This document shows positions 13,045-60,159 of a stretch of 64,000 nucleotides of DNA, piece by piece. The stretch's first letter is position 1, and every line of letters starts with the position of its first letter. The notes under the pieces are model-generated. The model searched no databases. It saw nothing but the letters and a program-made list of their open reading frames with translations, and was not told the origin of the DNA. Origin of the DNA: Fragilaria crotonensis (taxonomy: Eukaryota > Bacillariophyta > Fragilariophyceae > Fragilariales > Fragilariaceae); NCBI GenBank assembly GCA_022925895.1, contig JAKSYS010000215.1:22149-86148 (forward strand), given 5' to 3'. The position numbers and the translations under genes are program-made.

Positions 13045-16000
13045 CTAAGCACACTTCGATGCATACTTCGGAGCTGCGACATTCGTAATCAATGAACACT
13101 GCTCTGCTGGAGTCAGCGCCGCGAATCCGACAAGTTTGTCGGGAACAGCTGTTGGAATGCCTCCGAATTCGGCTCCAGCGTCATTCCACATTCGACCCAG
13201 GAAGCAACTATCGATGCATCCCTTATCATCCATCTTTGCGGCACAATTACGCAATCCATTCATGTGGTTCGCGGAGTACTCTTGAACCCAAATTTTATTG
13301 CCCGCAACAAACATGTCCACACGCATATACACACCAATCCTGTTGCCAAGATCAAGAGCAATTCCGATCATCTCGTTGAAGAGGCATTGATCAATCGCCG
13401 GAACTTCCTTACAGGTGTATAAATCCTTTTTGATCGAGCCCGCCTTGCGCTTCCCGGTTTCAAAGTCGATGGCAGTGCAGCTTGTTGCGTCGTCCACGTG
13501 GCCGACACCACCTGGCTCGAAACATCCAAATGTATCAAGACGGTTCCATTCAGTGTCCACAACAGCGTAGCAGGGACAGTCGCCGTCGCGACCTTCGACA
13601 ATATCGATGGCAGCAATGGAGCCGTTGACCACATGGAACTTGTATTCGGTTGGAAGAGTCTTCCCAACAAATTCTTCAACAATGATCTTGGTTGCTTGCA
13701 TTTGCGACAGCTCTGCCATTGCGTCAGCATATGTCGTGGTCACTTTCTTGATCAAATCGAAGAGTGGATCAGACCGAGCACCAGTACCGGTTTCGTTCAC
13801 TAAGACAAAAACACCTTGATTTGAATGAAAGTTGGTGGCCTTGATAACGATACCATCAAGATCTCTTGTAAAAACCTTGTCCTTTAAACATTGAGACAAC
13901 CCCGCAACATCCGTTACGCAGCAAAAGATTTCAGGTGAAGGAGCTTGTTGGTCCACAGAGAGCAGGTACCCCGCGATCTTGTCTTCGAGATATTGAAACC
14001 AATACCCATTACTTTCCAATGCTGAAGGATTGCTACGAAATTCTGAAGTTCGTTGCTGTATACGAGTCGGAAACGAACTCGCCGGATCACAATAATCTGG
14101 GGCAACAAGTGAGCACACAGAAATAAAAAATGAGAATGAAAACAACAGACTCTTACCGACGGAACGAAACGGAGCACACAGCGAACATCCAGGAAACGAG
14201 AGCTCTTCGCAGTAATCGGAAGCAAAAACATTCACAGTGTCAACAAAATTGTTACCGCTATCAAGTTCGCCAGCAGTAACAGTGACATTGAGGATATTCT
14301 TGGTGACGTCTACCGGATAGCCAACTGGGTTTGTTTCCACAACAGTATAGTCGCCTGGAGGAACATCCTTGAAGGCATATTCTCCTGTTGTGGACGTCAC
14401 AGTCGTCGCAACGACAGTGCCCTTGTCGTCAACGAGGGTGAGCACGACTCCGACAAGAGGAACGTCGTTATTGTTGGTGACGTTTCCAATGATCTGCGCC
14501 AGGAGGCCCCGCTCATCGACGAAGTTATTGTTGAGGGAGTCCGCAGTGGTAACGACGACGCTGATGAGGCTGAGGTTTGCAACTTGATCCGAGTCCCAAA
14601 CATCCGTGAAGCCCTCCAGGTTGGTCTCTGCGACGAAGTATGTGCCGGGTTCCACATCGACAAACTCGTAGTTCCCACTGGAGTCAGTGACGGTGGTCCT
14701 GAGCACGTCTTTGTTTGCGTTGAGAAGAGCGATGAGTACACTGGCAAGGTTAACGTCGCCCGTGTCGTCGTTGTTTGTGTCTTCCTTGACGTTTCCACTG
14801 ATGACGAAGGTTGCGGTATCAACAAACTTGTTGCCGTCATCCAGTTCGCCGGCAGTTACTGTCACGTTGATAACATTCTTGTTGACTGATGGGATCAAGT
14901 CCGTCGGGTCCTTGTCATCAGTGACATCGTATGCACTGACGTCAACTGGGTAGCCAACAGGGTTCGTTTCAACAACAGTATAGTTGCCTGGAGGAACATC
15001 TCTGAAGGCGTATTCTCCTGTTGTGGATGTCGCCGTCGTCGCGACGACAGTGCCCTTGTTGTCTGTGAGGGTGATCACGACTCCGACAAGAGGAACATCG
15101 CTTTTGTTAGTGACAATACCAGTGATCTGCCCCAACTGTCCCCGCTCATCAACGAAGTTATTGTTGAGGGAGTCCGCGGTGGTGATGTCGACGCTGATGA
15201 GGTTGAGGTTTGCACCTTGATCCGAGTCCCAAACATCCGTGAAGCCCTCCAGGTTGGTCTCTGCGACGAAGTATGTGCCGGGTTCCACATCGACAAACAT
15301 GTAGTTCCCACTGGAGTCAGTGACGGTGGTCCTGAACACTTCTTTGTTTGCGTCGAGAAGAGCGATGAGTACACTGGCGAGGTTAACGTCGCCCGTGTCA
15401 TCGTTGTTTGTGTCTTCCTTGACGTTTCCACTGATGACAAAGTTCGCGGTATCAACAAACTTGTTGCCGTCATCCAGTTCGCCGGCAGTTACTGTCACGT
15501 TGATAACATTCTTGTTGACTGATGGGATCAAGTCCGTCGGGTCCTTGTCATCAGTGACATCGTATGCACTGACGTCAACTGGGTAGCCAACAGGGTTCGT
15601 TTCAACAACAGTATAGTTGCCTGGAGGAACATCCCTGAAGGCGTATTCTCCTGTTGTGGATGTCGCCGTCGTCGCGACGACAGTGCCCTTGTTGTCTGTG
15701 AGGGTGATCACGACTCCGACAAGAGGAACATCGCTTTTGTTAGTGACAATACCAGTGATCTGCCCCAACTGACCCTGCTCATCGACGAAGTTATTGTTGA
15801 GGGAGTCCGCGGTGGTGATGACGACGCTGATGAGGTTGAGGTTTGCACCTTGATCCGAGTCCCAAACATCCGTGAAGTCCTCCAGGTTGGTCTCTGCGAC
15901 GAAGTATGTGCCGGGTTCCACATCGACAAACATGTAGTCCCCACTGGAGTCAGTGACGGTGGTCCTGAGCACGTCTTTGTTTGCGTCGAGAAGGGCAATG

Positions 16001-19000
16001 AGTACACCGGCGAGGTTGACGTCTCCCGTGTCGTCGTTGTTTGTGTCTTCCTTGACGTTTCCGCTAATTGCGAGCAGCGTTACTTTAGACGGCGATTCAC
16101 TGGTGTTTGCGCTTGATCCCTTGCTAGGGGTGCGAGATGGCGATGTGCTTGGTTTTGAGGATGGGACTGCCGATGGCTGGTACGATGGAGAATCTGACGG
16201 CCGCTCATCAACAAAGTCGTTTCCTTCAGAGTTGGTCGAGATCAGATTATCCGTGATCTTGTTGAGGTCCCCGCCATCAAGGTCCTTAACATCCGAGAAC
16301 CCATTCAAGTTGGTCTCACTGACAATATACTTTCCAGCTTCAAGATCAACGAACTTGTAGTTCCCACTTGAATCAGTGATGGTGGTTCTTATCACGTTAT
16401 CGTTCGCGTCAAGAAGTGAAATGGGTACGTTGGCAAGGTTGACGTCGCCTGTGTCGTCGTTGTTGGTGTCTTCCTTGACATTACCACTGATGGTTAGATA
16501 CAACGTGTCGACAAAGTTGTTACCATCGTCCACTTCGCCGGGGCTTAGTGTGACTGGAATCGCACTCTTTTTGATGGACGGAACCAAGTCCGTCGGATCC
16601 GTATCGTCAGTGACATCGTATGCACTCACGTCGTCCGGGTAGTCGGTGGGGTTGGTCTCCTCAACAGTGTAGCTTCCGGCGGGAAGATCATCGAACGAAT
16701 ACTGCCCGCTTGCAGTCGTTATGGTTGTGGCCAGATGGCACCTTGTCGTTTTCAGGGTGATCACTGCACCGGCGAGTGGAACCTTGACAATGGCATTGTT
16801 TGTCACGATACCTGTGATCTTCCCGAGACGCTCGTCGACGAAGTTGTTGCCAATGGAGTCGGACGAAACAAGATCGACGGCGACCTTGTTGAGATCTCCG
16901 CTGTCGATGTCCGAAACATCGGTGTAGCCACTGAGGTTTGTCTCTGTGACAACGTACTTGCCCGGGACAAGACTGTCGAACTTGTAGTTGCCGCTCGTGT
17001 CGGTTACGGTGGTTTTGATCACATTGAGGTTTCCGTCGAGAAGGGCAATGACGACGTTGGCAAGACTGATGTCGCCGACGTCGTCGTTATTGGTATCTTC
17101 CTTGACATTTCCGCTAATTGCGAGCAGCTTTACTTTAGACGGCGATTCACTGGGGTTTGCGCTTGATCCCTTGCTAGGGGTGCGAGATGGCGATGTGCTT
17201 GGCTTCGCGGATGGGACTGCCGATGGCTGGTACGATGGAGAATCTGACGGCCGCTCATCAACAAAGTCGTTTCCTTCAGAGTTGGTCGAGATCAGATTAA
17301 CCGTGATCTTGTTGAGGTCCCCGCCATCAAGGTCCTTAACATCCGAGAACCCATGTAAGTTGGTCTCACTGACAGAATACTTTCCAGCTTCAAGATCAAC
17401 GAACTTGTAGTTCCCACTTGAATCAGTGATGGTGGTTCTTATCACGTTATCGTTCGCGTCAAGAAGTGAAATGGGTACGTTGGCAAGGTTGACGTCACCT
17501 GTGTCGTCGTTGTTGGTGTCTTCCTTGACATTACCACTGATGGTTAGATACAACGTGTCGACAAAGTTGTTACCATCGTCCACTTCGCCGGGGCTTAGTG
17601 TGACTGGAATCGCACTCTTTTTGATGGACGGAACCAAGTCCGTCGGATCCGTATCGTCAGTGACATCGTATGCACTCACGTCGTCCGGGTAGTCGGTGGG
17701 GTTGGTCTCCTCAACAGTGTAGCTTCCGGCGGGAAGATCATCGAACGAATACTGCCCGCTTGCAGTCGTTATGGTTGTGGCCAGGATGGCACCCTTGTCG
17801 TTTTTCAGGGTGATCACTGCACCGGCGAGTGGAACCTTGACAATGGCATTGTTTGTCACGATACCTGTGATCTTCCCGAGACGCTCGTCGACGAAGTTGT
17901 TGCCAATGGAGTCGGACGAAACAAGATCGACGGCGACCTTGTTGAGATCTCCGCTGTCGATGTCCGAAACATCGGTGTAGCCACTGAGGTTTGTCTCTGT
18001 GACAACGTACTTGCCCGGGACAAGACTGTCGAACTTGTAGTTGCCGCTCGTGTCGGTTACGGTGGTTTTGATCACATTGAGGTTTCCGTCGAGAAGGGCA
18101 ATGACGACGTTGGCGAGACTGACGTCGCCGACGTCGTCGTTATTGGTATCTTCCTTGACATTTCCGCTGATGATGAGGAGTAATTCATCAACGAAGTCTT
18201 TATTTCTGTGTTCATCTCCTCCGAGGACACCGAACACACTTATCTTGCTGAGGTTGGGTCCTCCGTCCTGGTCTTTTACGTCATAGTAGTACGTAGGGTT
18301 CTGTTCGATGACGAAGTAGTCTCCAGCGTCGACGTTTTGGAACTCATAGAAGCCAGACGAATCTGTGATAGTTGTTCTGATCGTAAGACCATTCTTGTCA
18401 GTCAAGGTGATTGAGACGTTCGATAGAGGCACATCGTTCGAAGTTGAGCGGTCGTTGCCAATATCCTCTGTGACTGTGCCGGAGATTATAGCCACCTTGA
18501 TGTCGATTGGCGCCTTCACTTCAACAGGATCGAAATTGCTTCCGTCTGCTGTTGCGAAGTTCGTGATCGCAAAGACCCCGATCATTGGCAAAGCCATATC
18601 AGTTGCGGTGACTTCATAGGACCCAGTCCAAGTGAACTTCTCCCCAACTTCAAGGATGCCGTTTGTTGTCTTGGATTCAACGGGACCGCTCAAAACACTC
18701 AGGGAACCTCCAACTGAGGTTATCATGGGGTCGCTCACAGTCAATCCTTAGAAGTTACCGAAGCCAACATTACTGACAGATATCTCGTAAACGATGACAT
18801 CACCTGCTTGGTCAACGACAAAGCGAGGATCCTCAGTACCATCTGGATTAAGAACCTTCAGCACTTGCTTGTTCACCCATGGGTTGGGGAGCGGTACAAC
18901 GACAGTTCCCAAGTCCATTTCTCGGCTCTGTGAGGAAGCAATGATTTGCGTAGAAGACGGATTCTGACCCCACGCCACAGCAATGTCGACGGGATTTCCC

Positions 19001-20514
19001 GCAGCGACGCCGACGTTGTATGGATCGTTGTCGGCACCACCATTCCTTGCGGAAAACGCAGCTATCATGGCCCCACTCATGTCAAAGTCAGCGTCGTCTT
19101 GAATGAGCAAGGCTTTTAACATTCCCAACGTGAAACTCCTGTCGAAATTCTTGTCGCCGTCAAAATCCACGAAGATGTATGCGTTGCTGACAGGGGTCAC
19201 CCAGACATAACTTCGGTGCCGATCGCAATCCTTTGGGTTCTTGCAACTATAACCAAGCCCGACGAGAGCTTGAGAAGAAAGGTCGTAGGATGGAATCAAT
19301 GGGAATCCCCAATCCCAGCCCTGCCCATTGACGTAACCATACTCGTAAAATCCATTCCCGACCCAGAGATACTTTTCGTCCGCGTCGACCTGAACCAAAG
19401 CGTAGAATGGTTTCCCTTCGACGCACGTGAACTTTAGTCCTGTGTAGTCAGCTCTGTATGCGGACGTTTGCCAATTATTGTTGAAGCCGGTCCCAGAAAT
19501 GTCAATGGCACCATCCGTATCCGATGATTTACTAACGGTCGAATGAGGTGGAATAGAGAACGTTTGACCATTATTATCAATATTTCCGCCGAAGAATTGG
19601 ATGGTAATCGCTTGGTCATTAGGGTTGCGGAACCAGAATGCAGTGTTTCCAAAGGTTTCGGCGACAGGTGAAATGTATTCGCTAGACCATTTTTCGCGAG
19701 GAATCATGGCATACCAACGCATCTCGTAGGTACTGTCGACATCTCCAGTAATGAGACCAACTTGGACCGGATAATCCGAAGTGACCACATCGCCTTCGTT
19801 CACCTGGAAGATGAGGTTGTCACCTACGTCGATAGTGGTTGTGATTGATGCACCTCCGGGGGTCGAGGGATAGGTAACGGTAGTACCACTTTTACTTGCC
19901 ATTACGTGGAACGAGCTCATCTCAAACGCGGATGTGATACTGACGGTATTCTGGCCAACCGGAGCGACGTAGTTCATCCCCCAAACCTCCACGTTGAAGA
20001 CCTCCACAGCGCCGGCCATGAGGGAGCCTGCATTACCAGGGTACGCCGAGCGCGTAATGGCGATTGGCAAAGTGGCAGACACCCGATCTTTCCCATCGAA
20101 GAAGAGGACTTGACTGTCACGTGGAATTGGAACATTGTTCTGGAGAATGATGGCTTGGCCTCCATGTAATACATCTCCAGCGTTTGACGTGACTCCAGGT
20201 GCTGCACCGTTCGCTAGGTTGCCGTCTCCCCAGATCTGAGTGGTGCTCTGAGTTGGGTTTGCAGGATCAGACTCGTATCCATCTTCCCATTGGTCGTAAA
20301 CGATTTTCGTCCCATCAGCTGCGATCGTGATGGAAATAATCGTGGTCACGGGGCTTCTGGCTCCGAGGGTAGCATTATTGTTGATCAGTTGAAAGGAGTT
20401 GAGGAGATCCGCCTCGGGCAAGGGGACAAAATAGGTCTGAACAAGCGATAGTCGGGAAAGCACGAAAGAGGGTGCGAAAGCGCACAGGAGAATCACTCTC
20501 AAAGAAAGTTTCAT
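13045..20514 (-). CDS. Giant secreted protein: SdrD-B/Cna-B-like repeats plus C-terminal TupA-like ATP-grasp domain (one in-frame stop)
   Basis: The frame starts at ATG 20512-20514 and runs 2470 codons to TAG 13045-13047, with one intron (14097-14156, 60 nt, GTAAGA...CCCCAG) that is itself in frame and stop-free. Removing it gives PFRSVDYCDP, matching PYRSVDYCPV in the paralogue at 54.5 kb. A signal peptide (MKLSLRVILLCAFAPSFVLS) precedes a ~540-residue beta-rich domain (YDQWEDGYESDP, FDGKDRV) of a type seen in bacterial surface proteins. A DUF11-like segment follows (ISVSNVG...LTVSDPM), then ~13 prealbumin-like repeats (ISGNVKEDTNNDDTGDV, TTVTDSSGNYEF, ETNL) with two Pro/Ser linkers. The last ~350 residues resemble ATP-grasp: VIKATNFHSNQG, KIIVEEFVG, EYKFHVVNG, YMRVDMFV, WVQEYSANHMNG. 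One TAA (codon 589) interrupts the frame. The likely location is cell wall or extracellular matrix; the ATP-grasp substrate is unknown. Confidence 0.8.
14097..14156 (-). other. 60-nt in-frame intron in the giant secreted gene
   Basis: Read on the minus strand it begins GTAAGAG, has a pyrimidine-rich middle and ends TTGCCCCAG. It is phase 1, divisible by three and has no stop, so an unspliced reading adds 20 hydrophobic residues. Comparison with the paralogue at 54.4 kb, which lacks these residues at the homologous point, supports splicing. Confidence 0.85.
14270..16070 (-). repeat. Coding tandem repeat, 633-bp unit (about 2.8 copies)
   Basis: The same words recur exactly 633 bp apart, for example gatccgagtcccaaacatccgtgaag at about 14587, 15220 and 15853. 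Each unit encodes a pair of prealbumin-like repeats (one ISGNVKEDTNNDD type, one ITGIVTNKSDVPLVG type). The second and third units are nearly identical; the unit at the low-coordinate end is more diverged. Confidence 0.85.
16056..18170 (-). repeat. Coding tandem duplication, ~1050-bp unit (2 copies)
   Basis: The blocks at ~16.06-17.1 kb and ~17.11-18.16 kb are almost identical. The offset is 1050 bp before position ~16730 and 1053 bp after ~16755, because the first block lacks three single bases (at ~16734, ~16741 and ~16750) relative to the second. Each unit encodes three prealbumin-like repeats and, at one end, a PSxxPS-type linker. Confidence 0.85.
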
Positions 20515-22075: not shown

Positions 22076-25000
22076 TTAAATCCACCCAACACAAGTGCGG
22101 CGGTGCCGCGTGTCATAACCTTGAGCAAGCTTTCGAATGCGTTCGAAAACTTCTCGATTGAGGCCCTTGGTAAGGTAGTCAGCCAACTGGTCAGTGGTTG
22201 CAATCTTGAGCACTTCGACATCTCCGTTGCGGACGTGGTGCCAGAAGAAGTGCCACTTGACCAGGAAGTACTTGGTGCGATTAGTAATGCGTTGCTTGGT
22301 AGCAAGAAGCAGAGCACCATTGTTGTCTTCAAGACTCGGCAGCGAATGGTAGACTTGAAGTCAGGTGGCAGAGTCAATTCCTTGCAGATTTCTCCAAGAA
22401 GATCACGAAGTGGCAACAGAGTCCTCATGCTTGCACTGAGAGCAGAGTACTCAGATTCCAATGTAGACAGGGAGATCTCTGTTTGCAGTTGAGACTTCCA
22501 GAGAATTGGACAACCTCCAAGGGTGATGATGTAGCCGGTGCGGGACTTGGCGCTGGTGTCAGAATGATCAGGGTCACGACCATGGAGGCCAGCAAAGTCA
22601 GCATCAACATAACAATCAAGAGAGGTCTCCAGTGGGAGTCACAATAGTTCCTTTGTCAGCAGTGCGGTGCAAGTAGCGGACAATTGTTTTGATTGCCATG
22701 GCATGGCTCTTCTTGGGAGAATGATTGAACCTGGCAACTTGACTTACTGCAAATGTGATGTCTGGCCTTGTGTTTGTTGACAAGTACAAGAGCATTCCAA
22801 CAATAGAGCGGTAGTTCCAGAACTCATCCATGGGTTCTCCATCAGGTCAATCCCAAGGCATGCTTGCATAGCAGGAGTGTGGTTGGGGTTGCAGTCTTGA
22901 AGTCCTGTTGCCTTTATGATCTTCTGAATCAAACCCTTTTGTGTTAGGGTGACAGTGTTGGAGACTTCATCCTTGACAAACTTGATTCCAAGAAAATCAG
23001 TGAATGTGCCTTCACGAGTGAACTCCAAACCCAAATCAGTAAGATCCTGGAACAGTTTGTCAAGATCCTTTTGTTGGAGTAGGCAATCCCAAGATCATCA
23101 ACATAGAGAACAATCATGATGGTCTTGTTGTACAAGAGGCATGAGTCTGTGGCACTCTGCTTCAAACCTTGGAGGAGGAGTGCTTCACGAATGTGTTGAT
23201 ACCAAAGGCGGGGAGCAACCGAGAGGCCGTAGAGGCTCTTAACAAGTCGTAGGCAGGTCCTTTGGTCACTTGGCTGATCAGACTTGAAGCCTCTTGGCAT
23301 GTGGATCCAGACTGGGTCAGTTAGGTTGGCTTGGACAAAGGCACTGCTGAAGTCAATGGAGCAAGTTTGCCATCCCAATGTTAGGGACAAGACAAGGAAC
23401 AATCGAACTGAACTCCAAGCAACAACTGGGGCATAGGTTTCAGGTTCTCCTTCTTCAAGGTCGCCTCGAACACAGTAGCGCTTTGTACTTGGTGACTTCT
23501 CCATCTGGGGATCGCTTGCGCCGAAATACCCAAGTCCCTGGGAGAATCTTGGTCTTGGCTTCAAGGATACTGACTTCCTTCCAAGTCCCATTCTTCTCAA
23601 GGCTTGCCACTTCCTTAGCAGCTGCCTCCATCCACTTGGTCACATGCTCAATGTCAGCCATAGCTTGGTCAAAGCTCAGAGTGTCAGGATCAGATGCAGC
23701 TGCCTTGAAGGCAGTTGGGGAAAGGATGATTCCATTTTCCTCAAAGATCCAAGCACTTGGAGAAGCAAAGTATCCATGGCCTTGAGTGTTATCGTATCCA
23801 AGGCGTTGTGGTGCTGCGCGAATGCGGTTGGACCGGCGCGGAGACGTTGGTGGCGGAGGCGACTTGACTGGTTGCTCGTCACGTGGTGAGTCAAGGGCGA
23901 ATGCATTGTCTGGAACAGGACTCTCCCTCGTTTCAGACATTGGGGTCTGCTCCCGAACTGGGGAGAAGATTGGCTGATGAACTGGGGAGATCGGGTAGCT
24001 GGGACCTTGCGTGGCGTCTCTTCCTTGGCTTGTGAGCTGGAGTGTGGACGGCGTTGCAGAGGTGAAGTTCTGATGTCTGGCGTTGGAGGAGACTGGAGAG
24101 ATCGAGGATCGATAGACTGCTCCCTCGTTTGAGACATCATGGGAGTTGGAGGCCTTGGAGTGAGCAATGGAGAGCTTGGCAATGGCTGTGGAACAGTTGG
24201 TGTCCTGGGTGGAGCCTCAGCCAAGGGAGGAACTGGGAGTTGTTCAATAGCAACAGCTTCATCCATGGAGGCAGCAACTCTTGTTTGGTTCTCATTGTTG
24301 GCTTCTGTAGCTTGGGAGTCCATTCGCGCTTCCTCTGTATCATTGTTGTCGCCGTCATCGAATGGGAACTGATATCTTGAGTCGCCAAACAAACGGGCCC
24401 AACGCGTTGTATTAAAATCCGGGAGGGCATCCACATTGGTAGCCACTGTTGCAAACCAATCATCAAACACAATGTGATATTGGGGAGTGATGTACCCTGT
24501 CTCTGGATTCAAAACCAAGGGGACTGTGCTTGCATGTTTCTTGGAGAGCCCCATGTTGACACAGCGGATGGACCGAGGCTTCCAGCGAGGCAGCTTCTTT
24601 CCATCTGCAATGGTCTTCTCAAGAGCATACACAGGGCATCCCCACACATGCAGATCATGATACTTCCTTTGCTCCCATCTGGACTTGGTGAAGACATCAC
24701 TTGGACAGAGACCTGTTGCCAAATCAGGAACATGGTTGTGAAGGAAGATAGCATGGGAGACTGCCATTGGCCAAAGTGTTGCATCAGCCACATCTGGCCA
24801 ATGTACCGCTGAATGGAGCATCATTGTCCGAGCAATCGACATGATCGTTTGGATTGCCCTCTCAGCATGGCCATTGTGATGGTGAGCTCCAACTCCAGCA
24901 AACTTGACAACTTGCTTCAGAGTTCCAAGGTGCTCAGTGAACTTAGCTGAGGTGAAGCTTCCACCATTGTCAGAGAGATAGGATTGTGGAATGACTCCAC

Positions 25001-27186
25001 TGTCCCTTGCCATCAACTCAAAGTTCTGCTTGGCCTTCAGAGTCTCATGAGTGTTCAGATGCTTCTGAAACTCAACATGCACAAAGTTGGAAGCATGATC
25101 AATGAAGAGGCAGCCACCAGCAAACATGTCTGAGTTCAAGCTCCTTCCAGCTGAAGAGAAGAGCCTTCCCTTTGTTCCACAAATGAAGTGATCAATGGAG
25201 ACTTGTTGTCCAGGGAGCAAGTTGTCTGCCTTGAGAACTCCAGCTCGATCCTTGATAACAGTTGTGATCTTGGCAGGAGCTGGTCGCTGATGTTGCTTCC
25301 CATATTGGCATGCGGCACACTTGGGAGGGTTGACAATTCGGCAAGCAGCAGTATGGAGTGATCGATGCGACTCACTCCGACTCAGGACTCCAGTTCGCAT
25401 GATGAATTGGATCTTGCGAAAGGAAAGGTGTCCAAGGCGGTGGTGCCACCTTAATAACTCCTTCTCAGCTTCAGTCAAGTTGAGGTTGCTCTCATGAACA
25501 GTGTTGAGAGTAATGTTGAGAGCTGCAACTGCCTTGGGAGTATCTGAGCTGCGGTGTGCATCAGAGGTAGGCAAGTTGTTGTCAGGGTTGACTCTTGCAA
25601 TGAGTTGCCCTCTGGCTTCATCAGAGGTGCCACTCAAGGTCAGTTGATGAGCTTCAATGGTGATGGTCTCTCCAGGGTAAGCTTGGAGCAAGCTTGTGGT
25701 GGATAGGAGCCTGACCTTGATGCAAGACACCAAGTAGGCTGGGACCTTGAGCATCCTTAGGTTGCCCAGAGTATCTTGCATTGCCCACAGCACATGACCT
25801 TGACCTTCAATCCTGAGTCCCTTTGCAATGCCCTGCAGTTGAGTGATAGGGCCAGGGGTGTTGATGGGTCCAACAAAGTCCTTGCGGTCAGGAGTGATAG
25901 AGATGCTTGCACCAGAGTCCCAAATGACAGGAAACGTTGAAGCCTTGGGAAGGGATTCGCGGAAGCGGTCGGTTGACTGGAGAGCCATGCGAAGGATTGT
26001 GGAATAGTTGCCATTTGGAAACTTAGCCATGTTCACTTGCATTGCCATCTTGCGAGCAGCTTGAAGTTGCTTGGAGGTCCACTGATGGTTCCCTAGGCCT
26101 TGGAAGCCAATGGGAGAGACGGGGCGATAGACGCCGTTGGACTTGGGAAGCCTGCGAGCGCGGCGTCGCTGCTGGCGAAGCGGAGCGTCGAGGTAGGCGT
26201 CGTTGACATCGCAGTGGTTGATCCTTGGCCCTTCCTCTTGCGTCGACAAATCCGATGGCGAGCGGGATGTGTTACGGAGCTTGGGGCAAGGTTCAGTTGG
26301 CCCATGGACGATTGTATCGTTGCAGTGGCGGCAGGTCCAGTGAGTTGATCGCGGAATGGAGCGCTTGAGCGAGTCAACACGCTGAAGGAGAGTTGCAACC
26401 TTGGAGTGAAGGTCGTTCAACTGCACTTGCTGCTGTTGTTCAACCAACGTTGGTGCATTCCTCCGAATGTAGCGTCCCATGGATCGCAAGTTAATGGGGT
26501 ACCTGCGATGCAGTCCATGGGAGCGAATACTTCCGGCAGGGAACATTCGCGCGTCGTGTGACCTTGCGATTGTGTTGCTTGAGAGCACGACGATGGCGGC
26601 GAGAAGGTAGCTCCTTAGGATCAGGCTCAGGCGATGTTGAGCTGGGCTTAGGAAGCCAGAACAGTACGACCATGGCCAGTAAGGCCCAAAGCAATGGAGC
26701 AATGAGCGCCTCCTGGTGAGCCTCCAAAATTGCGAGACGTGCGGGCGAACGACCATGACATGCGCTCGAAGGATTGCCATGACTTGGCTCCAATCGACGG
26801 CGTTAAAATGCGCCATGGCGAGTTGAATAATTTCCAGCGTGGAGGTCCACAGTTTTTTGCAAACGGGACTGAAAATATTGCCATCACGTAGGTGAGCAGT
26901 AGAACGAGTACGGGAGGATCCGGGTCACCATGGTGCGCAGGATAAAGAGCGTCAGTCACACTTGGGACGACCTCAATTTCCGTGGTCCACACCGATGGAT
27001 CGAAGGCAAGGGAGACATTGTTGATTGCAGAACCAACACCTTGAGGGCCCTCAGAGCTCTTCTTGACGCCAGTGTGCGTTGCCGTTGCGTGGGTAGTGGT
27101 CCAACGCTTGCAGCTTGCGCACCAGTTGAAAGCCTTTCCATTGGCTTGCTTGACTTGAGGTGCTCCAGATGGAGGAGGAGTAGACT
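22076..27186 (-). pseudogene. Copia pol polyprotein (protease, integrase, RT, RNase H), frameshifted
   Basis: The longest open piece (26816-23676) has the protease motif WDSGASISIT, the GAG-pre-integrase zinc region (WHHRLGHLS, CAACQYGKQH) and an integrase core with D (SIDHFICG), D (YLSDNGGSF) and E (HAERAIQ). Downstream pieces in changing frames carry TWVFRRKRSPDGEV, SIDFSSAFVQA, VKSLYGLSVAPRLWY, the RT catalytic box LYVDDLG, FWNYRSIVGMLLYLS, NTRPDITFAVSQVARF, then RNase H (DADFAGLHGRD, LSTLESEYSALS). The natural end is GWI followed by TAA at 22076-22078. Frame changes fall near 23.95, 23.48, 23.08, 22.85, 22.63 and 22.35 kb. All catalytic motifs are intact. Confidence 0.88.
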
Positions 27187-43082: not shown

Positions 43083-45893
43083 CTAGAAAGTACTCTGTAG
43101 GGCACTCCTGACCACTCGACCTAAGTATTCCACCCTAACGCGATGATGAACGGCATCCTCTAGTTCTTCAAGACTTAGAGAGTGTCGCACCAACGCAGGG
43201 TTCATGTAGAACACAGCCTCTGTAAGGGCTGACAGACCATGCAACAGATACGTACATTTCGACAACGCCAGGGCATCTGTCAATGCTTCAACATTCGTCC
43301 GATGCGCAGGAACTCCCAGAGCGAAAGCGGCCGACTCATTCCGAGATAAGCCCTGCACAGACGGTTGACGTACGACACGACTGCTTACCCTCTCGGGCCA
43401 ATCTCGCATGATCTCTTCAATGACAAGTGCAGAGTCAGTGGCTAGGTAGATTGTGCCACCGCCATTGTCGACGAACGCCTCACAGAAGGGCAGAAAGTCG
43501 GACACAGGGATGACGTCTCGTTCTATCCACTTGTCCCCATGACGAATATGCATGCCCAGTGAGTTCTCTGGATTGGGATGAGCACATGCCGCCCGTTGCT
43601 CCATATCAGCATTAAATCGGATGTATCTCTTCACTATTGCTGCCCCATGTCTCCTCTGAGGTTCGAACCATGCTTCAAGTGGCACATCAGTCTGTCGCAT
43701 GTATCCCGGCATCCAATATCGCCAGGCGAATGATGCCCAAGGGGACTGACAATGCAAGCCTTGGCTGATTTGCTCAAGACTAAGAGTGACTAGTGGCTTG
43801 TGCATACAAGAGGGATCCCCTGGAGAAAAATCGCTCACAGGCTCAAAGTAATGCTCCCACACTCCAGTACCTTCGAAGAAAAACTCATGAGACATCAAAG
43901 TCATGCCGTCTGGTAACACGGGCTTGCCCGGAAACAGGTATCCGTGAGGATCTCGAGCATCCCTCGCCCATTCGACTTCCATGCCCTTCATCATGGTAAA
44001 GCGAACGCCGGGGCCTTGGGCGTGCACAACCGCATCGAACACTGGAGCTGAAAAGTTATTCAGGTGCACCCAAGGTTTGAAGTTATGCTGGTCAGCCCAG
44101 TACAAGAACCCAACCATGTACTGAAAAAAGATTGTACCACTCGCTCCTCCAAAGTCTCCCTGTTGTATATGGAGAATACCGTCATAGCCATCACAAGCTC
44201 CTTGCGAGGGCGGTCTCTGCCTGGGAGGCGATGAGTCGAGAACCAGAGTTGAACACTTTTCGGGGTCCAAGTTCAATGAGGGTTCCTTAACTGATTGCTC
44301 CTCAATTACGGGAAAATAATCCCAATCAGCCACTGGCGCTGACAAATCCGCATACTCCAAAACTTCATCAGGCTCGTTCGAGACTCGAAGAGAGCCAACG
44401 ACTGTCGCAAAAACATCGACCGGTATGTGAGGATTGTCTTCACCCTCCATTTCTTCAAGATTGATCGCGCTATCCAGCAACGAAGGGTTCGTGTAGAACA
44501 CAGCCTCTGTAAGGGCTGACAGGCCATGCAACAGATACGTACATTTCGATAACGCCAGGGCATCTGTCAATGCTTCAACATTCGTCCGATGCGCAGGAAC
44601 TCCCAGAGCGAAAGCGGCGGACTCATTCCGAGATAAGCCCTTCACAGACGGTTGACGAACAATTTGACTGATTACCCTCTCGGGCCAATCCCGCATGATC
44701 TCTTCAACGACAAGTGCAGAGTCAGTGGCTAGGTAGATTGTGCCACCGCCATTGTCGACAAACGCCTCACAATACGGTAGGAAGGCAGACACAGGAATAA
44801 TGGATCGCTGTATCCACTTGTCCCCATGCCGAATATGCATACCCAGTGAGTTCTCAGGATTGGGATGAGCACATGCCGCCCGTTGCTCGATGTCAGCATT
44901 GAAACGAATATATCTCTTCACTATTGCTGCCCCATGCATCCTCTGAGGCTTGAACCATGTGTTAAGCGGCACATTAGGCTGCAGCAGGTAATCCGGCATC
45001 CAATACCGCCAACCGTGTGATGCCCACGGCGCCTGATAATGCAAGTAGTGACTTATCTGAAGGTAATCAAGACTAACTAGTGGCTTGTGCATACAAGAGG
45101 GATCCCCTGGAGAAAAATCGCTCACAGGCTCAAAGTAGTGCTCCCACACTCCGGTACCTTCGAAGATAAACTCATGAGACGTCAAGGTCATGCCGTCTGG
45201 TAACACGGGCTTGCCGGGAAATAAGTATCCATGAGGATCTCGAGCATCCCTCGCCCATCCAACTTCCATGCCCTTCATCATGGTAAAGCGAACGCCGGGG
45301 CCTTGGGCGTGCACAAACTCATCGAACACTGGCGCCGAAAAGCTATTCAAGTGCACCCAAGGTTTGAAGTGATGCTGGTCAGCCCAGTACAAGAACCCTA
45401 CCATGTACTGAAAAAAGATCGTCCCACTCGCTCCTCCAAAGTCTCCCTGTTGTATATGGAGAATACCGTCATAGCCATCACAAGCTCCTTGCGAGGGCGG
45501 TCTCTGCCTGGGAGGCGATGAGTCGAGAACCAGAGTTGAACACTTTTTGGGGTTCAAGTTCCATGTGGGTTCCTTAACGGATTGCTCTTCAATTACCGGA
45601 AAGTAATCCCAATCAGCCACTGGTGCTGACAAGTCAGTGTACGCTTTGTTGAAGACTTCCTCCGTGGCTTCGTTGTTTTCATTGGTGGATGGCGTTCCAT
45701 TGGGTGTTTGATCTTGAGCGACATCGCCGTGCTGAGGGTGACGAAGTGAAGGCGCATCCTTATACTCTGTAGTTCTCCCAGTATCGAGCTGATCTGCTTT
45801 CGGGGGGTTCGCCAAATGAACACAAAATGCAAGCAAAAAGGCAGCCCACACAAAGTTCTTGAGCCATCTACCTGTTGTGCGCGTTCGTTTCAT
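43083..45893 (-). CDS. Type II membrane protein with two tandem fucosyltransferase-like modules
   Basis: 936 codons without an intron. I choose the ATG at 45891-45893 (MKRTRTTGRWLKNFVWAAFL) because it gives a short basic tail and one membrane helix (~residues 12-29), the classic Golgi type II layout; an upstream extension to 46121 has no such logic. Two modules of ~430 residues (from ~84 and ~516) are very similar, each starting SAPVADWDYFPVIEEQSVKE. Each has GDFGGASGTIFFQYMVG, an IHIRxGDK-type motif (LGMHIRHGDKWI at ~351 and ~780), GGGTIYLATDSALV(V/I)EEI, and a final ALALSKCTYLLHGLSALTEA. These landmarks fit GT23/GT65-68-type fucosyltransferases. It probably acts in the Golgi on glycoproteins or wall glycans. 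Acceptor and activity are inferred only. Confidence 0.8.
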   Translation of the reverse strand: MKRTRTTGRWLKNFVWAAFLLAFCVHLANPPKADQLDTGRTTEYKDAPSLRHPQHGDVAQDQTPNGTPSTNENNEATEEVFNKAYTDLSAPVADWDYFPVIEEQSVKEPTWNLNPKKCSTLVLDSSPPRQRPPSQGACDGYDGILHIQQGDFGGASGTIFFQYMVGFLYWADQHHFKPWVHLNSFSAPVFDEFVHAQGPGVRFTMMKGMEVGWARDARDPHGYLFPGKPVLPDGMTLTSHEFIFEGTGVWEHYFEPVSDFSPGDPSCMHKPLVSLDYLQISHYLHYQAPWASHGWRYWMPDYLLQPNVPLNTWFKPQRMHGAAIVKRYIRFNADIEQRAACAHPNPENSLGMHIRHGDKWIQRSIIPVSAFLPYCEAFVDNGGGTIYLATDSALVVEEIMRDWPERVISQIVRQPSVKGLSRNESAAFALGVPAHRTNVEALTDALALSKCTYLLHGLSALTEAVFYTNPSLLDSAINLEEMEGEDNPHIPVDVFATVVGSLRVSNEPDEVLEYADLSAPVADWDYFPVIEEQSVKEPSLNLDPEKCSTLVLDSSPPRQRPPSQGACDGYDGILHIQQGDFGGASGTIFFQYMVGFLYWADQHNFKPWVHLNNFSAPVFDAVVHAQGPGVRFTMMKGMEVEWARDARDPHGYLFPGKPVLPDGMTLMSHEFFFEGTGVWEHYFEPVSDFSPGDPSCMHKPLVTLSLEQISQGLHCQSPWASFAWRYWMPGYMRQTDVPLEAWFEPQRRHGAAIVKRYIRFNADMEQRAACAHPNPENSLGMHIRHGDKWIERDVIPVSDFLPFCEAFVDNGGGTIYLATDSALVIEEIMRDWPERVSSRVVRQPSVQGLSRNESAAFALGVPAHRTNVEALTDALALSKCTYLLHGLSALTEAVFYMNPALVRHSLSLEELEDAVHHRVRVEYLGRVVRSALQSTF

Positions 45894-47715
45894 GATCGAA
45901 CAAAACGAGTTGTTTGAGGTGTACCCAGACGCGAATTGATGAATCCCTATGCAAGAAGTAGTACAAAGAAAGACCACATTGCTCAGCTTGAGTGCTTGCG
46001 CTTCGCCACAACTAGTGGGATGGTGCGAGTTATGGTGCCAAGGGTTGATGTGCACACTCGTGCAGTCGCCGTGGGGTTGTAGTTGTAATGGCGTAATTGG
46101 AAATGTTGACCACACCAGCAATGCGCCGGTCGCTGAATCATTTCATTTTCCGCCAACTGTGTCGACTGTCGACCTTTCAGTGCATTTATGGCATTCCATG
46201 TATGTACGTGTACCTGGTACTACAGTACGCCAAATGTTTAGTACAGTACCTGGTAGTACTACGAATTCCGGCTATGTCGCTATGTCCTATCACATCGCAC
46301 CTTTTACTGTACCATTGTTGATGCTGTAAGAACTAACGGTACTGTAGTAGTGGGGAACGAAGCAGGTCCTATCAGATACAACACGGTACACAGTGTATCA
46401 ATATGAGCTTTAATGAGAGTTTATAATTAATGAGCATTGTTCGCCGCAAGATCGACTCAGAACTCAGAAATCATTGTAGAGGGTTGATGCTAGCAGACAG
46501 AGAATCTGTGGACACCGGACCTGGTGATCTATCATGGGCAGAAGGGAACACAGCAGGCTGTTTCTCGCGTGGGTGATTCAAGAACCGCTGGAGCACTTTT
46601 TCGTATAAAATGATTGACGGGGTGAGGTTCACTTCCTCTTTGGCTCACTAGCTTCATTTCTGTCCAGTGATGTCGGGTGTATTTGGCTGATGATTGTCAG
46701 GGTTGGGACTTCCAGGCGGTGCCTTTCAGTATGCCATACACTGTGGGTTGGAGGTGGAAGCGAATCTTGTCCATAATTACCTTTGGCCTGGAGACGGTGG
46801 AGCATGCCTCGGCCACAACTCTGACAACGATTGCCAGTCACGTGGATGGCTTCTATCGAGATAGTCCAGATGCATTTTCGTGGGACAAGCTGGATCCCCA
46901 GTTTCCGCCCTAATGTTCACGTCCAGATATATCCATACAAGGCTGACATCTCTTTATTGCGGTAGAACGTATCTTTGTGACTGACGTGACTGCATAATCA
47001 GTTGGGCCCTGGAGAGAAATCCATGGTTGGTTGGTGATGGTGACCGAGATATTGTGACGCGCCATGGAATTCCCGAAGATATACCGACCAGCATGGAGTG
47101 AGGAATGGCATTGTCGCCGTTGGTTCCGACAACAGTTTGAGACCCACGCCAGGCGTCAAGTCGAATGCAGCGGAGGTTTGTCATAATGAGTTTGCTCGTT
47201 TGGGACTGCGACAAGATGTTATTCCTTATGTAACTGATTTGATTTCCGTCGAACGTCATGCAAATCCAATCCACTTATAGTGCGGACGGGCAATGACGAA
47301 TTTCTTTGGGAAGTGCACAATTTGCAATTTGCATGAATCTTCTGGAGAATCGTCGGGAATGTTTTTGTTTGAAGGATGTGGAGTTTCTCCTCCTTCAGAC
47401 AAGACATTGCCAGAAGACGGAGCCTCATGGTTGGGATATATTGAACTGAGCAGTCTTAATACTTGATTTTCTAGCCAATCTCTACCCTGAACACGGCAAA
47501 AATACTTGCGAGGCTATCATGGCTGCCAAGCGTGACGCGGAGAGCCTTGACGGCGAGCAAGCGTTGTACTTGATTGAATTTTCTCAAACTACCAGTTGAG
47601 GATCAGCTGAGGAAATCATATCCTCTGCCTTTGCTTCAATTTTGATTATAAGGTCCGAAAGCTCTTTCTTGAATGAACACAGGCACGTTCCATGACGCAA
47701 ACATTACACAGTACA
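45894..47715. other. Intergenic, with GTAC cluster and unclassified degenerate sequence
   Basis: 46190-46350, about 300-450 bp upstream of the glycosyltransferase-like ATG, is dense in GTAC words (gtacctggtactacagtacg, agtacagtacctggtagtac). Between 46650 and 47640 broken plus-strand frames look like an old coding sequence (IVAVGSDNSLRPTPGVKS, FARLGLRQDVIPYVTDL, EAIMAAKRDAESLDGEQAL), but I do not recognise the family. Confidence 0.45.
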
Positions 47716-54180: not shown

Positions 54181-57100
54181 ATGAGATACGTTCTCATTGT
54201 CCTTCTTTTCCGCTGGATGAATGCCGAAGCAAGTGGTTTGCGTAATGACTTCGTTGTAAGTTAACTTGAGATGTTGTACATGATAACCTCGCGCCAAAAT
54301 GACTGTGAACAGTGCCTAATCATGTCTCAGAGTCGCATGCTTGCTGGAGAGCAGACTGCATGTGTTCCTGGAATCACACCCCCTGGGTGCACAGCAGATC
54401 CAAGACCCAAGTGTACCCCTTACAGGAGCGTCGATTATTGCCCTGTCAACGAATCGTTTCAGTCATACATTCAGAAGCGAACGTCCTTTGTGAGGAATAA
54501 CCTCCAGGACCTTATGGATGAAGGGATTTGGTTCCACAACCTTGAGGATAAGCTTGCGGGATACAAGGTGGCCGCGTCTCTTGGTCTTAACCCTCCGAAG
54601 ATTCACTTTTGCACCAATAATGTCTCAGAGTTGCTGGACTTCAACAAGACTGCAGCTGGTATGCAAGGATTTGTCGTTCGTGCTACTGATCTCCATAGCA
54701 ACTACGGCATCTACGCATTGCCAAACGGTTTCAATGGCAAAGAATTCATTCGTGGCGTTGATATGACTGCTCAAGATGTGGTTTTGGATTTGACAGCGCT
54801 GGGTGCAAAGACTGTCATTATCGAAGATTATGTTGGATCGGAAGTCAGCCTTCCCGTCGAAGTGAAGTTTCACATGTTCAACGGCCAAGTGGGATCCATC
54901 AATGTTGTCACCAATCGTGGAACCGAATGTGCATGTACGTTTCGACTGATATAGTCGATTGAAAAACTTGCATTCTGCCCATGATAATCGATGCGACTCA
55001 CATGTGCTGCTCTGTCAATCAACTTTACTTATTAGGCTGGGCTGAGATGGATGAAAAGCAGAACCGACTTGATCAGTTCGGATGTTTCTCTGCAGGTGGC
55101 CGCGCTGAATTCCAAGGTCAGTGCACTGCCATTGACTTCCAAAAGGGTGCAACTATGGCGCATCCCATGAAAGGCCTGGACTTGTGTACCGACCTTGTCA
55201 AGTTCGACGACTGCCTTATGAACGACATGATTGCCATCGCACGACAGGCGAGCGAGATGATCGGCGTTTACATTCGTGTTGACATGTTCGTGGGAAACGA
55301 TGGAAAGATTTACCTCCAAGAATTCACCACCAATCATATGAATGGCTTGAGACATTGTAGTGCCATCATGAATGCCAACGGTTGCGTCGACCCCTGCTTT
55401 CAAGGAGCGATGTGGAAGGCGGCTGGGAATAATAGTACGTTCGGAGGGTCATTGACTGTTGAACCAGAGGCATTAACCACGTGGCTATCTCTTCCGATCG
55501 ATGCCAAGTGCCCCGACATCGAGAAAACCCAGTTGCAACCGGCCCCTCTGTCAACCTGTTCAAGGAACATCCAGGATGGCAACTCTACCGCGTATCCAAT
55601 CACAACGTCGCCGTCGCCTTCATCTTCTCCGTCCGTCGCTACAGTCATATCCTCGTTAAAGCCGACTGCATCCCCCACATCCCTTCCCACGGAACCACCA
55701 CAGCCCCTTCCGACTACTGCACCGACAACCCAGAGCCCTACAGTTGCCGCACAAACCTACTCGTGCTCGCTCTCTAGTGCAGCGTCCGAGTTTTCGGTCA
55801 TTTCTGAAGACAATGCAATCATCAACGCACAAAATTTGAATGGTCTGGGTTTTCTCATCGGTGGAAATTTGGAACGCACAAACTCCAATGTTGGCAACAT
55901 CAATACTAAGTCCTTCGTCGCCGGCACCAGAAGTGGCGCCTGGAACTGGAACCCCAATCCAGTACTTGCAGGCCCTTTTAACACCCTCGTAGACTTCGAG
56001 CAACTTCGGTACATATCGAGAAATGCTGTATCGTCGACGGCTGCTGATGGTTCCAGGGTGATAGTGATCAACAGCGGCGGAACCTTCACTTCCGCGGCTC
56101 AACTGTCAAGCCAGATTGATCACAACACACAAAACGTCTTGGTAGTATTCAACACTGACTTGGACGTCACCCTGGACTTTGGCATGAATACTATTAACTT
56201 CAGTGTTCTCGCACCCCGATCCAAGCTAACAGTCATTGTCGACCAGAGGGACATAAGGGGCTTCCTTGTTGGAAAGGAAGTGAGCGTTTCCTCTACCGCA
56301 AATATATCATCACAGCTGTACACCGGACAACCTGAGTGCTCATCAGACCCTGCCGCCACCGGCCTCCCTATTCCTACTTCGACTCCGACACCAGCTCCCA
56401 CTTTCGCTGGATCAGAACAACCTTCGAATGCCGCATCCGTCACGCCGACGGTCTCAAGTTCGCAAAGTTCTTCGATCCTCAAGTCGAAGTCACCGTCGAG
56501 TTTGAACTCGGAGTTGCCTACGGTGATGCTGTCAGAGAAACCTTCCACCGCTGCATCATTCAAGCCGTCGCAAATGACTTCGCAAGCACCTTCGAGTTTG
56601 AACTCGGAATTGCCTACGGTGACCCTGTCAGAGAAGCCTTCCAACGCTGCATCCTTGATGCCAACAATCACGACTTCCCGATCTCCTTCGGCTCTGACAT
56701 CCGAAGCACCATCACGTTTGACCTCGACCGTTCCAACCGTTGATCAGTCAGAAAAGCCTTCCAACGCAGCATCACTCATGCCAACAGTTGTTTCATCACA
56801 ACGACCTTCCGTTGGCTTAAGGACAGAGTCTCCTTCGCTTCATCCTTCCGAGCTTCCAACTGTTGTGGCGTCAGAGCGACCTTCAAGTTTTGCATCGGTG
56901 CCCGTCACACCTCTTCCGACCCCATCACCAACGGAGGCTCCAACGGCACCTCCAACAGTGGCACTAACAACGGATCCGACGGTGACACAAACAGAATCTC
57001 CAACCGCATCTCCTACAGAAGGTCCAACAGGTGATCCAACTTCGGCACCGACAGAATCTCCAACCGGACCTCCTACAGTGCCTCCGACGGGAGGCCCGAC

Positions 57101-60100
57101 AGCGGATCCTTCAGTTGGTCCTACAGGAGATCCAACTGCGGCACCGACAGAATTTCCAACCGGACCTCCTACAGCGCCTCCGACGGGAGGTCCGACAGCG
57201 GATCCTACTGTGCATCCGACTGAAGCACCGACAACCAGCCCAACAGCCTTTCCCACTGGACCGCCGACTCCGCTTTCGACTTCTGCACCCGCCACGCCCA
57301 GTCCCACAGTTGCAGCCCAAAGTTACTCGTGTATCCTCCCTAGTGTTGTGTCCGAGTTCTCTGTCATCTCTGAAGGAAATGCGATCATCAACGCACAAAA
57401 CTTCAATGGCCTCGGTCTCCTTATTGGCGGAAATTTGGACCGCACAAACAACAATGCTGGCAACATCTATCAAAAGTCGTTCGTCGCCGGAACCAGAAGT
57501 GGAGCCTGGAATTGGAACCCCAATCCAGTACTTGCAGGCCCTTTTAACACCCTCGTAGACTTCGAGCAACTTCGGTACATATCGAGAAATGCTGTATCGT
57601 CGACGGCTGCTGATGGTTCCAGGGTGATAGTGATCAACAGCGGCGGAACCTTCACTTCCGCGGCTCAACTGTCAAGCGATCTAAAACCGTGGATTGACAG
57701 GTACTTGGTCATATTCAACACCGACTTGGACGTCACCCTGGACTTTGGCACGAATGGCATCAACTTTAGTGCTCTCGCGCCCCGATCCAAGCTCTCTGTG
57801 AACGTCAACTCGGGAGACGTACGAGGTTTCCTTGCGGCCAGGGAAGTGGTCGTTTCCTCGACGACGAACATGGTGTGGCAGTCGTACCAATACGCTGGAC
57901 AGCCACTGTGCCCGACCATCACAGGCCCTCCCGTTCCTACTTCGGCTCCTACGCCAGCTCCACATCAGCAGCGCTACCAACAGCACCCACCCTCCAGGCG
58001 TGTGCGCCTGCACATTGCCTGACTACCTCAAACAGAAGAAGTGGACGCTCATCACGAAGGGTGACGCTCTCCATTCGGCCCACAGCGTGTATACCGGCCT
58101 CGCCATTGGCGGGACTTTGTCGGTTTATGAGCCCACGACGAGCAAGACCGTTTCGTACATGAGCTACATGCAAGCCATTTTCCCAGCGACGAGTTACGGG
58201 ATCAATTTCAATGGAGGAATGCAGATAGACCCCTCTCCCTTGACTGCTGCCGGTATCGACTTCTCTGTGCTTGAGTGTGTCGCAAGAAATGCAGTAAGTT
58301 CTGAAGTGACGATTCCAGGTTCCAGCAAGACTTCCAAGGTGGTTGTCTTCACGGTTGGAGGATCGTACAGTATGGACGATGTGCGACCAAACAATGGTTT
58401 TTATCCAGACGAGGACAACGGCAGTACTCTGGTGATTTTCAATACTTCGGACGATGTGCGTTTGATCTTTAGCAATAACCGGAAGTTCGGTCCGTCAGTT
58501 CTTGCACCTTTCTCGAAGGTGACGATCGACGACAACAATGACTTCACCGATGGGTATGTTGTTGCGAGAGAGTTTGTATCCACCAAAACAGCGCAGCAAC
58601 TCCATGGAGATGCTTTCCAAGGAGATGTTGCCTGCGCGACAGGTTCGAGTCCCACCGGAACGACATCTGCGACGCCATTGCCCACCACTGCACTCGTCGC
58701 GCCACCTCCAAGCTCTTATCCAACGGGTGCTCCAACAGGTGCTTCTACAGTGGATCCGACGGGGGCACCTACCCCCAGCCCGACAGCCTTTCCCACAGGT
58801 TCTTCACCCGCCACGCCCAGTCCCACAGTTGCAGCCCAAAGTTACTCGTGTATCCTCCCTAGTGTTGTGTCCGAGTTCTCTGTCATCTCTGAAGGAAATG
58901 CGATCATCAACGCACAAAACTTCAATGGCCTCGGTCTCCTTATTGGCGGAAATTTGGACCGCACAAACAACAATGCTGGCAACATCTATCAAAAGTCGTT
59001 CGTCGCCGGAACCAGAAGTGGAGCCTGGAATTGGAACCCCAATCCAGTACTTGCAGGCCCTTTTAACACCCTCGTAGACTTCGAGCAACTTCGGTACATA
59101 TCGAGAAATGCTGTATCGTCGACGGCTGCTGATGGTTCCAGGGTGATAGTGATCAACAGCGGCGGAACCTTCACTTCCGCGGCTCAACTGTCAAGCGATC
59201 TAAAACCGTGGATTGACAGGTACTTGGTCATATTCAACACCGACTTGGACGTCACCCTGGACTTTGGCACGAATGGCATCAACTTTAGTGCTCTCGCGCC
59301 CCGATCCAAGCTCTCTGTGAACGTCAACTCGGGAGACGTACGAGGTTTCCTTGCGGCCAGGGAAGTGGTCGTTTCCTCGACGACGAACATGGTGTGGCAG
59401 TCGTACCAATACGCTGGACAGCCACTGTGCCCGACCATCACAGGCCCTCCCGTTCCTACTTCGGCTCCTACGCCAGCTCCCACATCAGCAGCGCTACCAA
59501 CAGCACCCACCCCTCCAGGCGTGTGCGCCTGCACATTGCCTGACTACCTCAAACAGAAGAAGTGGACGCTCATCACGAAGGGTGACGCTCTCCATTCGGC
59601 CCACAGCGTGTATACCGGCCTCGCCATTGGCGGGACTTTGTCGGTTTATGAGCCCACGACGAGCAAGACCGTTTCGTACATGAGCTACATGCAAGCCATT
59701 TTCCCAGCGACGAGTTACGGGATCAATTTCAATGGAGGAATGCAGATAGACCCCTCTCCCTTGACTGCTGCCGGTATCGACTTCTCTGTGCTTGAGTGTG
59801 TCGCAAGAAATGCAGTAAGTTCTGAAGTGACGATTCCAGGTTCCAGCAAGACTTCCAAGGTGGTTGTCTTCACGGTTGGAGGATCGTACAGTATGGACGA
59901 TGTGCGACCAAACAATGGTTTTTATCCAGACGAGGACAACGGCAGTACTCTGGTGATTTTCAATACTTCGGACGATGTGCGTTTGATCTTTAGCAATAAC
60001 CGGAAGTTCGGTCCGTCAGTTCTTGCACCTTTCTCGAAGGTGACGATCGACGACAACAATGACTTCACCGATGGGTATGTTGTTGCGAGAGAGTTTGTAT

Positions 60101-60159
60101 CCACCAAAACAGCGCAGCAACTCCATGGAGATGCTTTCCAAGGTACTACGTCTTGCTAG
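54181..60159 (+). CDS. Giant secreted protein: TupA-like ATP-grasp domain plus choice-of-anchor-A-like domains (two 1-nt deletions)
   Basis: Exons 54181-54255, 54331-54934 and 55036-60159; introns begin GTAAGT and GTACGT (the first could also end at 54312). MRYVLIVLLFRWMNAEAS is the signal peptide. The ATP-grasp region (residues ~50-440) has LEDKLAGYKVAASLGL, FVVRATDLHSNYG, VIIEDYVG, VEVKFHMFNG, YIRVDMFVGNDGKIYLQEF and TTNHMNGLRHC, like the paralogue at 13-20 kb. Pro/Thr/Ser linkers (SEKPSNAAS; PTGDPTSAPTESPT) follow, with five domains of choice-of-anchor-A type: SEFSVISE, IGGNL, SVLAPRSKL / SVLAPFSKVTI, GYVVAREFVS. Order: A-linker-A-B-A-B. Single bases are missing at ~57960 and ~57990 relative to the downstream copy; with them the gene has 1934 codons. 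Probably an extracellular matrix or adhesion protein. Confidence 0.8.
54256..54330 (+). other. Intron 1 of the second giant secreted gene
   Basis: It starts GTAAGTTAAC and contains in-frame stops, so it must be spliced to join the signal peptide to the body. I prefer the acceptor tctcag at 54330 because of the pyrimidine stretch and the upstream cctaat branch-like site. gaacag at 54312 would also keep the frame. Confidence 0.7.
54935..55035 (+). other. Intron 2 of the second giant secreted gene
   Basis: GTACGTTTCG...TTACTTATTAG, 101 nt, phase 1. Joining gives ECACWAEMDEKQNRLDQFGC, which aligns with DCPCYAVVDTEWNRLDTFGC of the paralogue, where no intron occurs at this point. Confidence 0.85.
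57287..60145 (+). repeat. Near-perfect coding tandem duplication, ~1.52-kb period
   Basis: 57287-58625 and 58806-60145 are identical wherever I compared them, except for two single-base deletions in the first copy (ctccac for ctcccac at ~57960; caccctcc for cacccctcc at ~57990). The offset changes from 1519 to 1521 at those points. Each copy carries one A-type and one B-type choice-of-anchor-A-like domain. The unit boundaries fall in the Pro/Thr linker. Confidence 0.9.

Follow-up and report, generated by a model that had tools for sequence, protein, structure and literature searches.

A family of predicted secreted diatom proteins that joins a TupA-adjacent ATP-grasp domain to adhesin-type repeats

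Introduction

What is a domain resembling an ATP-dependent ligase doing in diatom genes that encode signal-bearing, repeat-rich proteins? The question is raised by a stretch of 64,000 nucleotides from Fragilaria crotonensis (contig JAKSYS010000215.1 of assembly GCA_022925895.1; the whole stretch is hereafter the window), in which gene A (13045-20514, minus strand) and gene B (54181-60159, plus strand) both carry such a domain. ATP-grasp ligases use ATP to turn a carboxylate into an acyl phosphate, which is then attacked by an amine, and they are generally intracellular. We give a probability of about one half to the reading that A and B belong to a family of secreted matrix or adhesion proteins whose cysteine-rich ATP-grasp domain is active as a ligase in the secretory path. 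The existence of a new secreted ATP-grasp family adjoining TupA is well supported; the enzymatic activity of the domain seems likely, and its substrate is speculative. If active, the domain could help build the diatom outer coat. Contigs, loci and relatives are given by our own handles (C, L and P numbers).

Two genes share one domain

With introns removed, the C-terminal domain of A (13048-14217, minus strand, intron included) and the N-terminal domain of B (54355-55586, plus strand, intron 2 included) align over nearly their whole length, with 148 of 373 residues identical (E 9e-88). This bears out the initial annotation, which had linked both genes to one domain through motifs such as KLAGYKVAA / KIAGYLLSV and KFHMFNG / KFHVVNG. 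Chance similarity was rejected, since the local score was 664, whereas 300 shuffles averaged 36 and never exceeded 58. The match turns continuous once the introns are spliced, which supports the gene models: the intron of A (GTAAGA...CAG; 14097-14156, minus strand) lies inside the N-terminal part of the domain, and its splicing restores the CAPFRSVDYC match to B, while both introns of B (54256-54330 and 54935-55035, plus strand) agree with the NCBI model of this gene (MHU86_12900, our P0040), whose spliced sequence is identical. We also rejected the idea that A and B arose by a recent tandem duplication, since the tree places A in a 25-row clade (100/100 support) and B outside it; B sits on a long branch.

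A signal peptide-like start had been proposed for the domain proteins, and we found it again: hydropathy gives a hydrophobic, signal-like N-terminus on both A and B (short in B), and the complete relatives P0036 and P0042 show one by eye. In A the putative signal peptide comprises about 20 hydrophobic residues (20455-20514, minus strand), and P0036 begins alike. The domain has 17 conserved cysteine columns and averages 14.0 cysteines per row, against 4.6 in bacterial TupA, a richness that would fit a disulphide-bonded domain in the lumen or outside the cell.

The predicted fold and its nearest family

Structure prediction yielded an ATP-grasp fold, and not the different fold that would have spoken against the initial annotation; we assign this fold to the shared domain on the strength of the model. 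The AlphaFold alignment (A3) held 28 of 29 proteins, with P0028 left out. For profile comparison we used 41 diatom rows, several of them fragments and some not independent: contigs C100 and C218 of the same genome are the source of the NCBI models P0032a/b, P0034 and P0035, the last two being the genes behind rows C218a and C218c. From the 29 proteins, P0005, P0017, P0023, P0025 and P0028 were omitted as truncated or insertion-bearing. Also outside the profile were P0039, P0041, P0042 (used in the tree only), the second C704 copy, which has stops, and the genomic fragments. Against TupA, this profile reached an hhalign probability of 98.6% (E 9e-16, 157 columns), with 20 shuffles giving at most 2.6%, and against D-Ala-D-Ala ligase (Ddl, PF07478) 95.4%. 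TupA was the top scorer among the four profiles compared (TupA, Ddl, TTL and sugar-transfer). The sugar-transfer profile (PF14397, 8 sequences) gave 0.4% and is a poor yardstick, as TupA itself reaches only 0.3% against it; the assignment stands despite the weak TTL and sugar-transfer comparisons because it is based on TupA, Ddl and the model.

An active domain with another chemistry, either a RimK- or TTL-like ligase adding amino acids or peptides to proteins or a kinase-like phosphoryl transferase, seems to us quite unlikely. TupA is the best profile match, and the one TupA-like activity that we met in the literature is the amidation of a sugar carboxylate (PMC11800379). The TTL profile (7 open reading frames, ORFs, of the same genome) also gave just 0.4%, a figure of little power since TupA itself scores only 4.4% against it.

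Strict membership of TupA is a different matter. Domain A scored 18.1 and domain B 21.9 against PF14305, below the gathering score of 25, and a search of the genome with this model recovered neither of them, only another locus, on C398; relative P0003 did reach 25.4, and 14 of 31 members matched at E<=0.01. For PF14397, B scored 15.3 bits against a cut-off of 31.4, and A had no match at E<=1. Sequence searches of the PDB with the diatom alignments A3 and A5 and with bacterial TupA returned no useful match, one of them giving only a linker against sigma factors. The description as a TupA-like ATP-grasp domain thus holds for the fold and for TupA being the best of four profiles, but not for strict membership, since the Pfam cut-off is missed and two TupA motifs are absent.

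The C398 locus (L001, 1297-3189) encodes a second kind of TupA protein, of 631 residues and 54.8 bits, above the Pfam cut-off, with a hydrophobic N-terminus and more hydrophobic segments beyond the domain, and it is possibly membrane bound. As a single sequence it reached only 15.7% against the A subfamily.

The putative active site

Residue counts refer to the 41-row alignment, with gaps not counted. Conservation is close to complete at D59 (31/31), K60 (30/31), H111 (33/33), G115 (32/33), E161 (34/34), K173 (33/34), R279 and D281 (both 40/40), E293 (40/40) and N297 (39/40). The TupA equivalents are D74 84/85, K75 85/85, H119 85/85, E169 85/85, K189 84/85, R262 and D264 85/85 each, and E276 83/85, with no TupA counterpart for N297. 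An acid in the penultimate strand (D281) and a glutamate and an asparagine in the last (E293 and N297), the expected magnesium ligands, are all present, as assigned through the Ddl profile alignment, where the asparagine lies two residues further. The roles given to these residues are presumed from ATP-grasp enzymes in general. The consistent loss of ATP and magnesium ligands that would have counted against an enzyme was not found, although some of the basic residues that bind phosphate do differ. From this conservation pattern, the acidic metal-binding set appears intact and part of the phosphate-binding basic set altered.

Several observations weigh against an active TupA-like ligase. The second basic residue of DKxxxK (K79 in TupA, where K or R occupies it in 85/85 sequences) is tyrosine in 29/31 diatom rows. 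The VIKAT lysine, the first ATP lysine, is K in 26/28 A-side rows, but arginine in 4/5 B rows; C704a and C877n also have arginine there. The RExxYK stretch of TupA (155-160) has no counterpart in the diatom alignment, Foldseek TM-scores are low (0.33-0.40), and we saw no enzyme domain next to the ATP-grasp domain, a glycosyltransferase for instance, that would hint at a substrate. The altered basic residues are compatible with a non-catalytic ATP-grasp descendant, a disulphide-stabilised module in adhesins that binds nucleotide, phosphate, silica or acidic glycan. Such a module would suit the partners identified, which are structural repeats, and the scarcity of ATP outside the cell. We nevertheless hold it to be somewhat unlikely, since the E, RxD, E set is invariant in all covering rows across deeply split subfamilies, and such a set is expected for Mg-ATP chemistry, beyond mere folding.

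Gene architecture and frame breaks

Gene A runs from the ATG at 20514 to the stop at 13045 and has one short intron; a single in-frame TAA divides it into two ORFs. Its signal-like start is followed by a region of about 570 residues (18751-20454, all A coordinates on the minus strand), which is kept in the A-type relatives P0036, P0038 and P0032 and had no match in Pfam and NCBIfam scans, then by SdrD_B repeats and two PSxxPS linkers (14229-18490, ends approximate) and finally by the ATP-grasp domain. The repeats match PF17210 in 13 stretches (E 1.4e-124), in agreement with the fusion to SdrD-B-like repeats that had been noticed for this gene. At 16728-16760, one repeat copy shows single-base losses relative to its twin and a short frame slip, which resembles residual Nanopore error.

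Gene B, from the ATG at 54181, encodes a signal-like start, the ATP-grasp domain, PT/PS-rich linkers and adhesive-type repeats (all B coordinates on the plus strand), with mutual identities of 28-75% among the repeat units. For these repeats the initial label, choice-of-anchor-A-like, stood in part: ORF 57802-60159 matches the pAdhesive_15 / ice-binding-like family PF20597 (E 4e-18, 3 stretches), but ORF 55038-58022 does not, although BLASTP links the repeats of that ORF to the matching one (27.9-29.3% identity, E 4e-12 and 6e-16). Repeat 1 (55758-56388, ends approximate) is 75% identical to repeat 2 and has no direct Pfam match, and none of the relevant NCBIfam models matched. The proposed joining of the domain to two sorts of bacterial-type surface repeat is supported across A and B. 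The gene also contains a 1.34-kb duplication, whose first copy (57281-58622) holds two adhesive-type repeats and a frameshift near 57958-58000, where the NCBI model ends, and whose second (58800-60143) is in frame and 99.8% identical (1 mismatch, 2 gaps). This near-perfect duplication is either recent or an assembly artefact.

Could A and B be unexpressed or decaying, with the stop and the frameshift real? Besides the TAA of A (18748-18750) and the frameshift of B (57.96-58.00 kb), stops occur in one C704 copy and in the C50, C179 and C413 pieces, as decay would predict. The complete relative P0036 runs straight through the position of the TAA (42% identity over 746 residues, from residue 1), and, as this alignment is unbroken, we take A to encode a single protein and the TAA at 18748-18750 to be a stop allele or an error in the assembly. 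The published draft of F. crotonensis (SAG 28.96; 61.85 Mb, 879 contigs) is described as Nanopore R9.4.1 sequence polished with Pilon (PMC9476933), and the copies of the duplication in B differ by single bases. Of 21 pairs, four among the intact C100 and C218 paralogues had a ratio of nonsynonymous to synonymous substitution rates (dN/dS) of 0.114-0.122; another four, including two that involve A, gave 0.04-0.10 at a saturated dS of 2.6-3.1, and the other 13 gave no value. The intact paralogues are under purifying selection. Given this selection, with dN/dS about 0.12, the Nanopore origin of the assembly and the complete transcript-derived relatives P0036 and P0042, we judge decay very unlikely.

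The family in the genome and beyond

The domain had been presented as shared by two proteins; both do carry it, but they belong to a larger family. Our searches of the genome, which covered an assembly of 62.1 Mb in 881 contigs, gave 24 matches to domain A, grouped as 12 nearly full-length copies (2 in the window, 2 on C100, 3 on C218, 2 on C704 and one each on C60, C341 and C877) plus fragments on C413, C50, C179 and, as a weak match, C246. SdrD_B adjoins the domain at six loci: A, C100, the three of C218 and C60. The two lie within one open frame in A and C218b, and NCBI models fuse them on C100 (P0032) and in two C218 copies (P0034, P0035); on C60 the link is adjacency only. On C341, C704 and C877, the tested ORFs matched no Pfam family at 1e-4. 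In P0032 (L026, contig C100), two copies of the ATP-grasp domain stand in tandem within one protein model.

Relatives came from metagenomes, MMETSP/EukProt transcripts and F. crotonensis. P0036 (1369 residues, transcript-derived and labelled complete) keeps the A-type order. SdrD_B occurs in the outside relatives P0036, P0037 and P0038 according to precomputed labels (P0036 and P0038 were rescanned), PF20597 in P0021, and bacterial Ig/cadherin-like domains in P0031. In the ATP-grasp domain of the B-type relatives P0028 and P0042, a long cysteine-rich insertion separates the IIEEYI motif from the EYKVH motif. In P0030 the domain is followed by the motif FWGDPHITTFD, which we take to resemble the diatom adhesive GDPH domain.

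Bacterial contamination was rejected on account of the introns and the transcript-derived relatives. Two-motif scans of bacterial/archaeal and of viral contigs gave 7 and 19 pattern matches and zero relatives, a result that excludes only relatives keeping both motifs, and nothing in them points to bacteria as present carriers. Searching plasmids for the N-terminal region of A gave no match. The family may be diatom-wide or diatom-only, and bacterial TupA could be the source of the fold.

Other features of the window and of the searches

On the minus strand of the window lie an ORF that carries a gag-pre-integrase domain and looks like a retroelement remnant (23679-26924), an EF-hand protein (30977-32323) and a region of sub-threshold NodZ similarity (43086-46142; E 2.5e-5, at 23.7 bits where the cut-off is 28.3). 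On a Yokenella plasmid (L038, 2554-3453), a gene annotated as an ATP-grasp amidoligase adjoins type III secretion genes.

Proposed function

Glucuronomannan is one of the main wall polymers of diatoms. We hypothesise that the proteins would enter the secretory path through their signal peptides and that, in the ATP-containing lumen of the endoplasmic reticulum or Golgi, the domain would activate a carboxylate as an acyl phosphate and couple it to an amine, a step modelled on the action of Cj1438C upon capsule glucuronic acid. The acceptor would probably be a uronic-acid glycan or an acidic protein. A scaffold that keeps the enzyme on the matrix could be provided by the SdrD_B or adhesive repeats, or these repeats could themselves be coupled to it. 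By analogy, the family may amidate diatom wall uronates, and may thus modify wall or matrix. The more specific proposal, that diatoms build or cure their extracellular matrix by means of adhesins which carry their own ligase and which, during secretion, form amide links between glucuronate polymers or acidic proteins and amines, for example lysines or polyamines, scaffold and enzyme being one molecule, is speculative and we consider it unlikely in this precise form. In a literature search mostly outside subscription journals, no paper on secreted diatom ATP-grasp domains was among the matches listed. A relative of bacterial surface-polymer ATP-grasp enzymes has apparently become a cysteine-rich, signal-bearing module, with a dozen copies in a single diatom and adhesin repeats as fusion partners, which makes the family a direct candidate for carrying out covalent reactions in the diatom coat.

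Comparison with known systems

Ddl, for which many structures have been solved, has an ATP-grasp core colinear with that of the diatom domain, with 17% identity over 200 aligned columns. In the last strand the diatom domain has E-x3-N where Ddl has E-x-N, and the Ddl sequence compared lacks the tyrosine at the second basic position of DKxxxK.

C7orf58 of animals also goes by the name CPED1. It is reported to be a secreted eukaryotic ATP-grasp protein predicted to modify cell-surface polymers (PMC2824669), the one such case that we met in the literature, and joins a TTL-type ATP-grasp domain to a PC-esterase, whereas the diatom family has TupA as its best profile and adhesin repeats as partners. 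No PC-esterase was among the Pfam families listed for the pieces of A and B (25 of 35 families for the repeat piece of A).

Closest are the TupA-like proteins of PF14305, including Cj1438C of the Campylobacter jejuni capsule, which is reported to form an amide on the C6 carboxylate of glucuronic acid (PMC11800379). The motif order VK, HxSxG, E, (D/E)YKF..NG, RxD, E is the same, in line with the profile probability. The diatom domain differs in its signal-like start, its cysteines, about 30 additional residues ahead of the final helix, the lack of the second basic residue of DKxxxK and of RExxYK, and window scores under the Pfam cut-off. Cj1438 carries a glycosyltransferase, and the diatom domain is fused instead to adhesin repeats. 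SdrD_B domains are reported from the chitinase set of Thalassiosira weissflogii (PMC12028343), where they accompany a glycoside hydrolase part, whereas in the family described here their partner is a ligase-type ATP-grasp domain.
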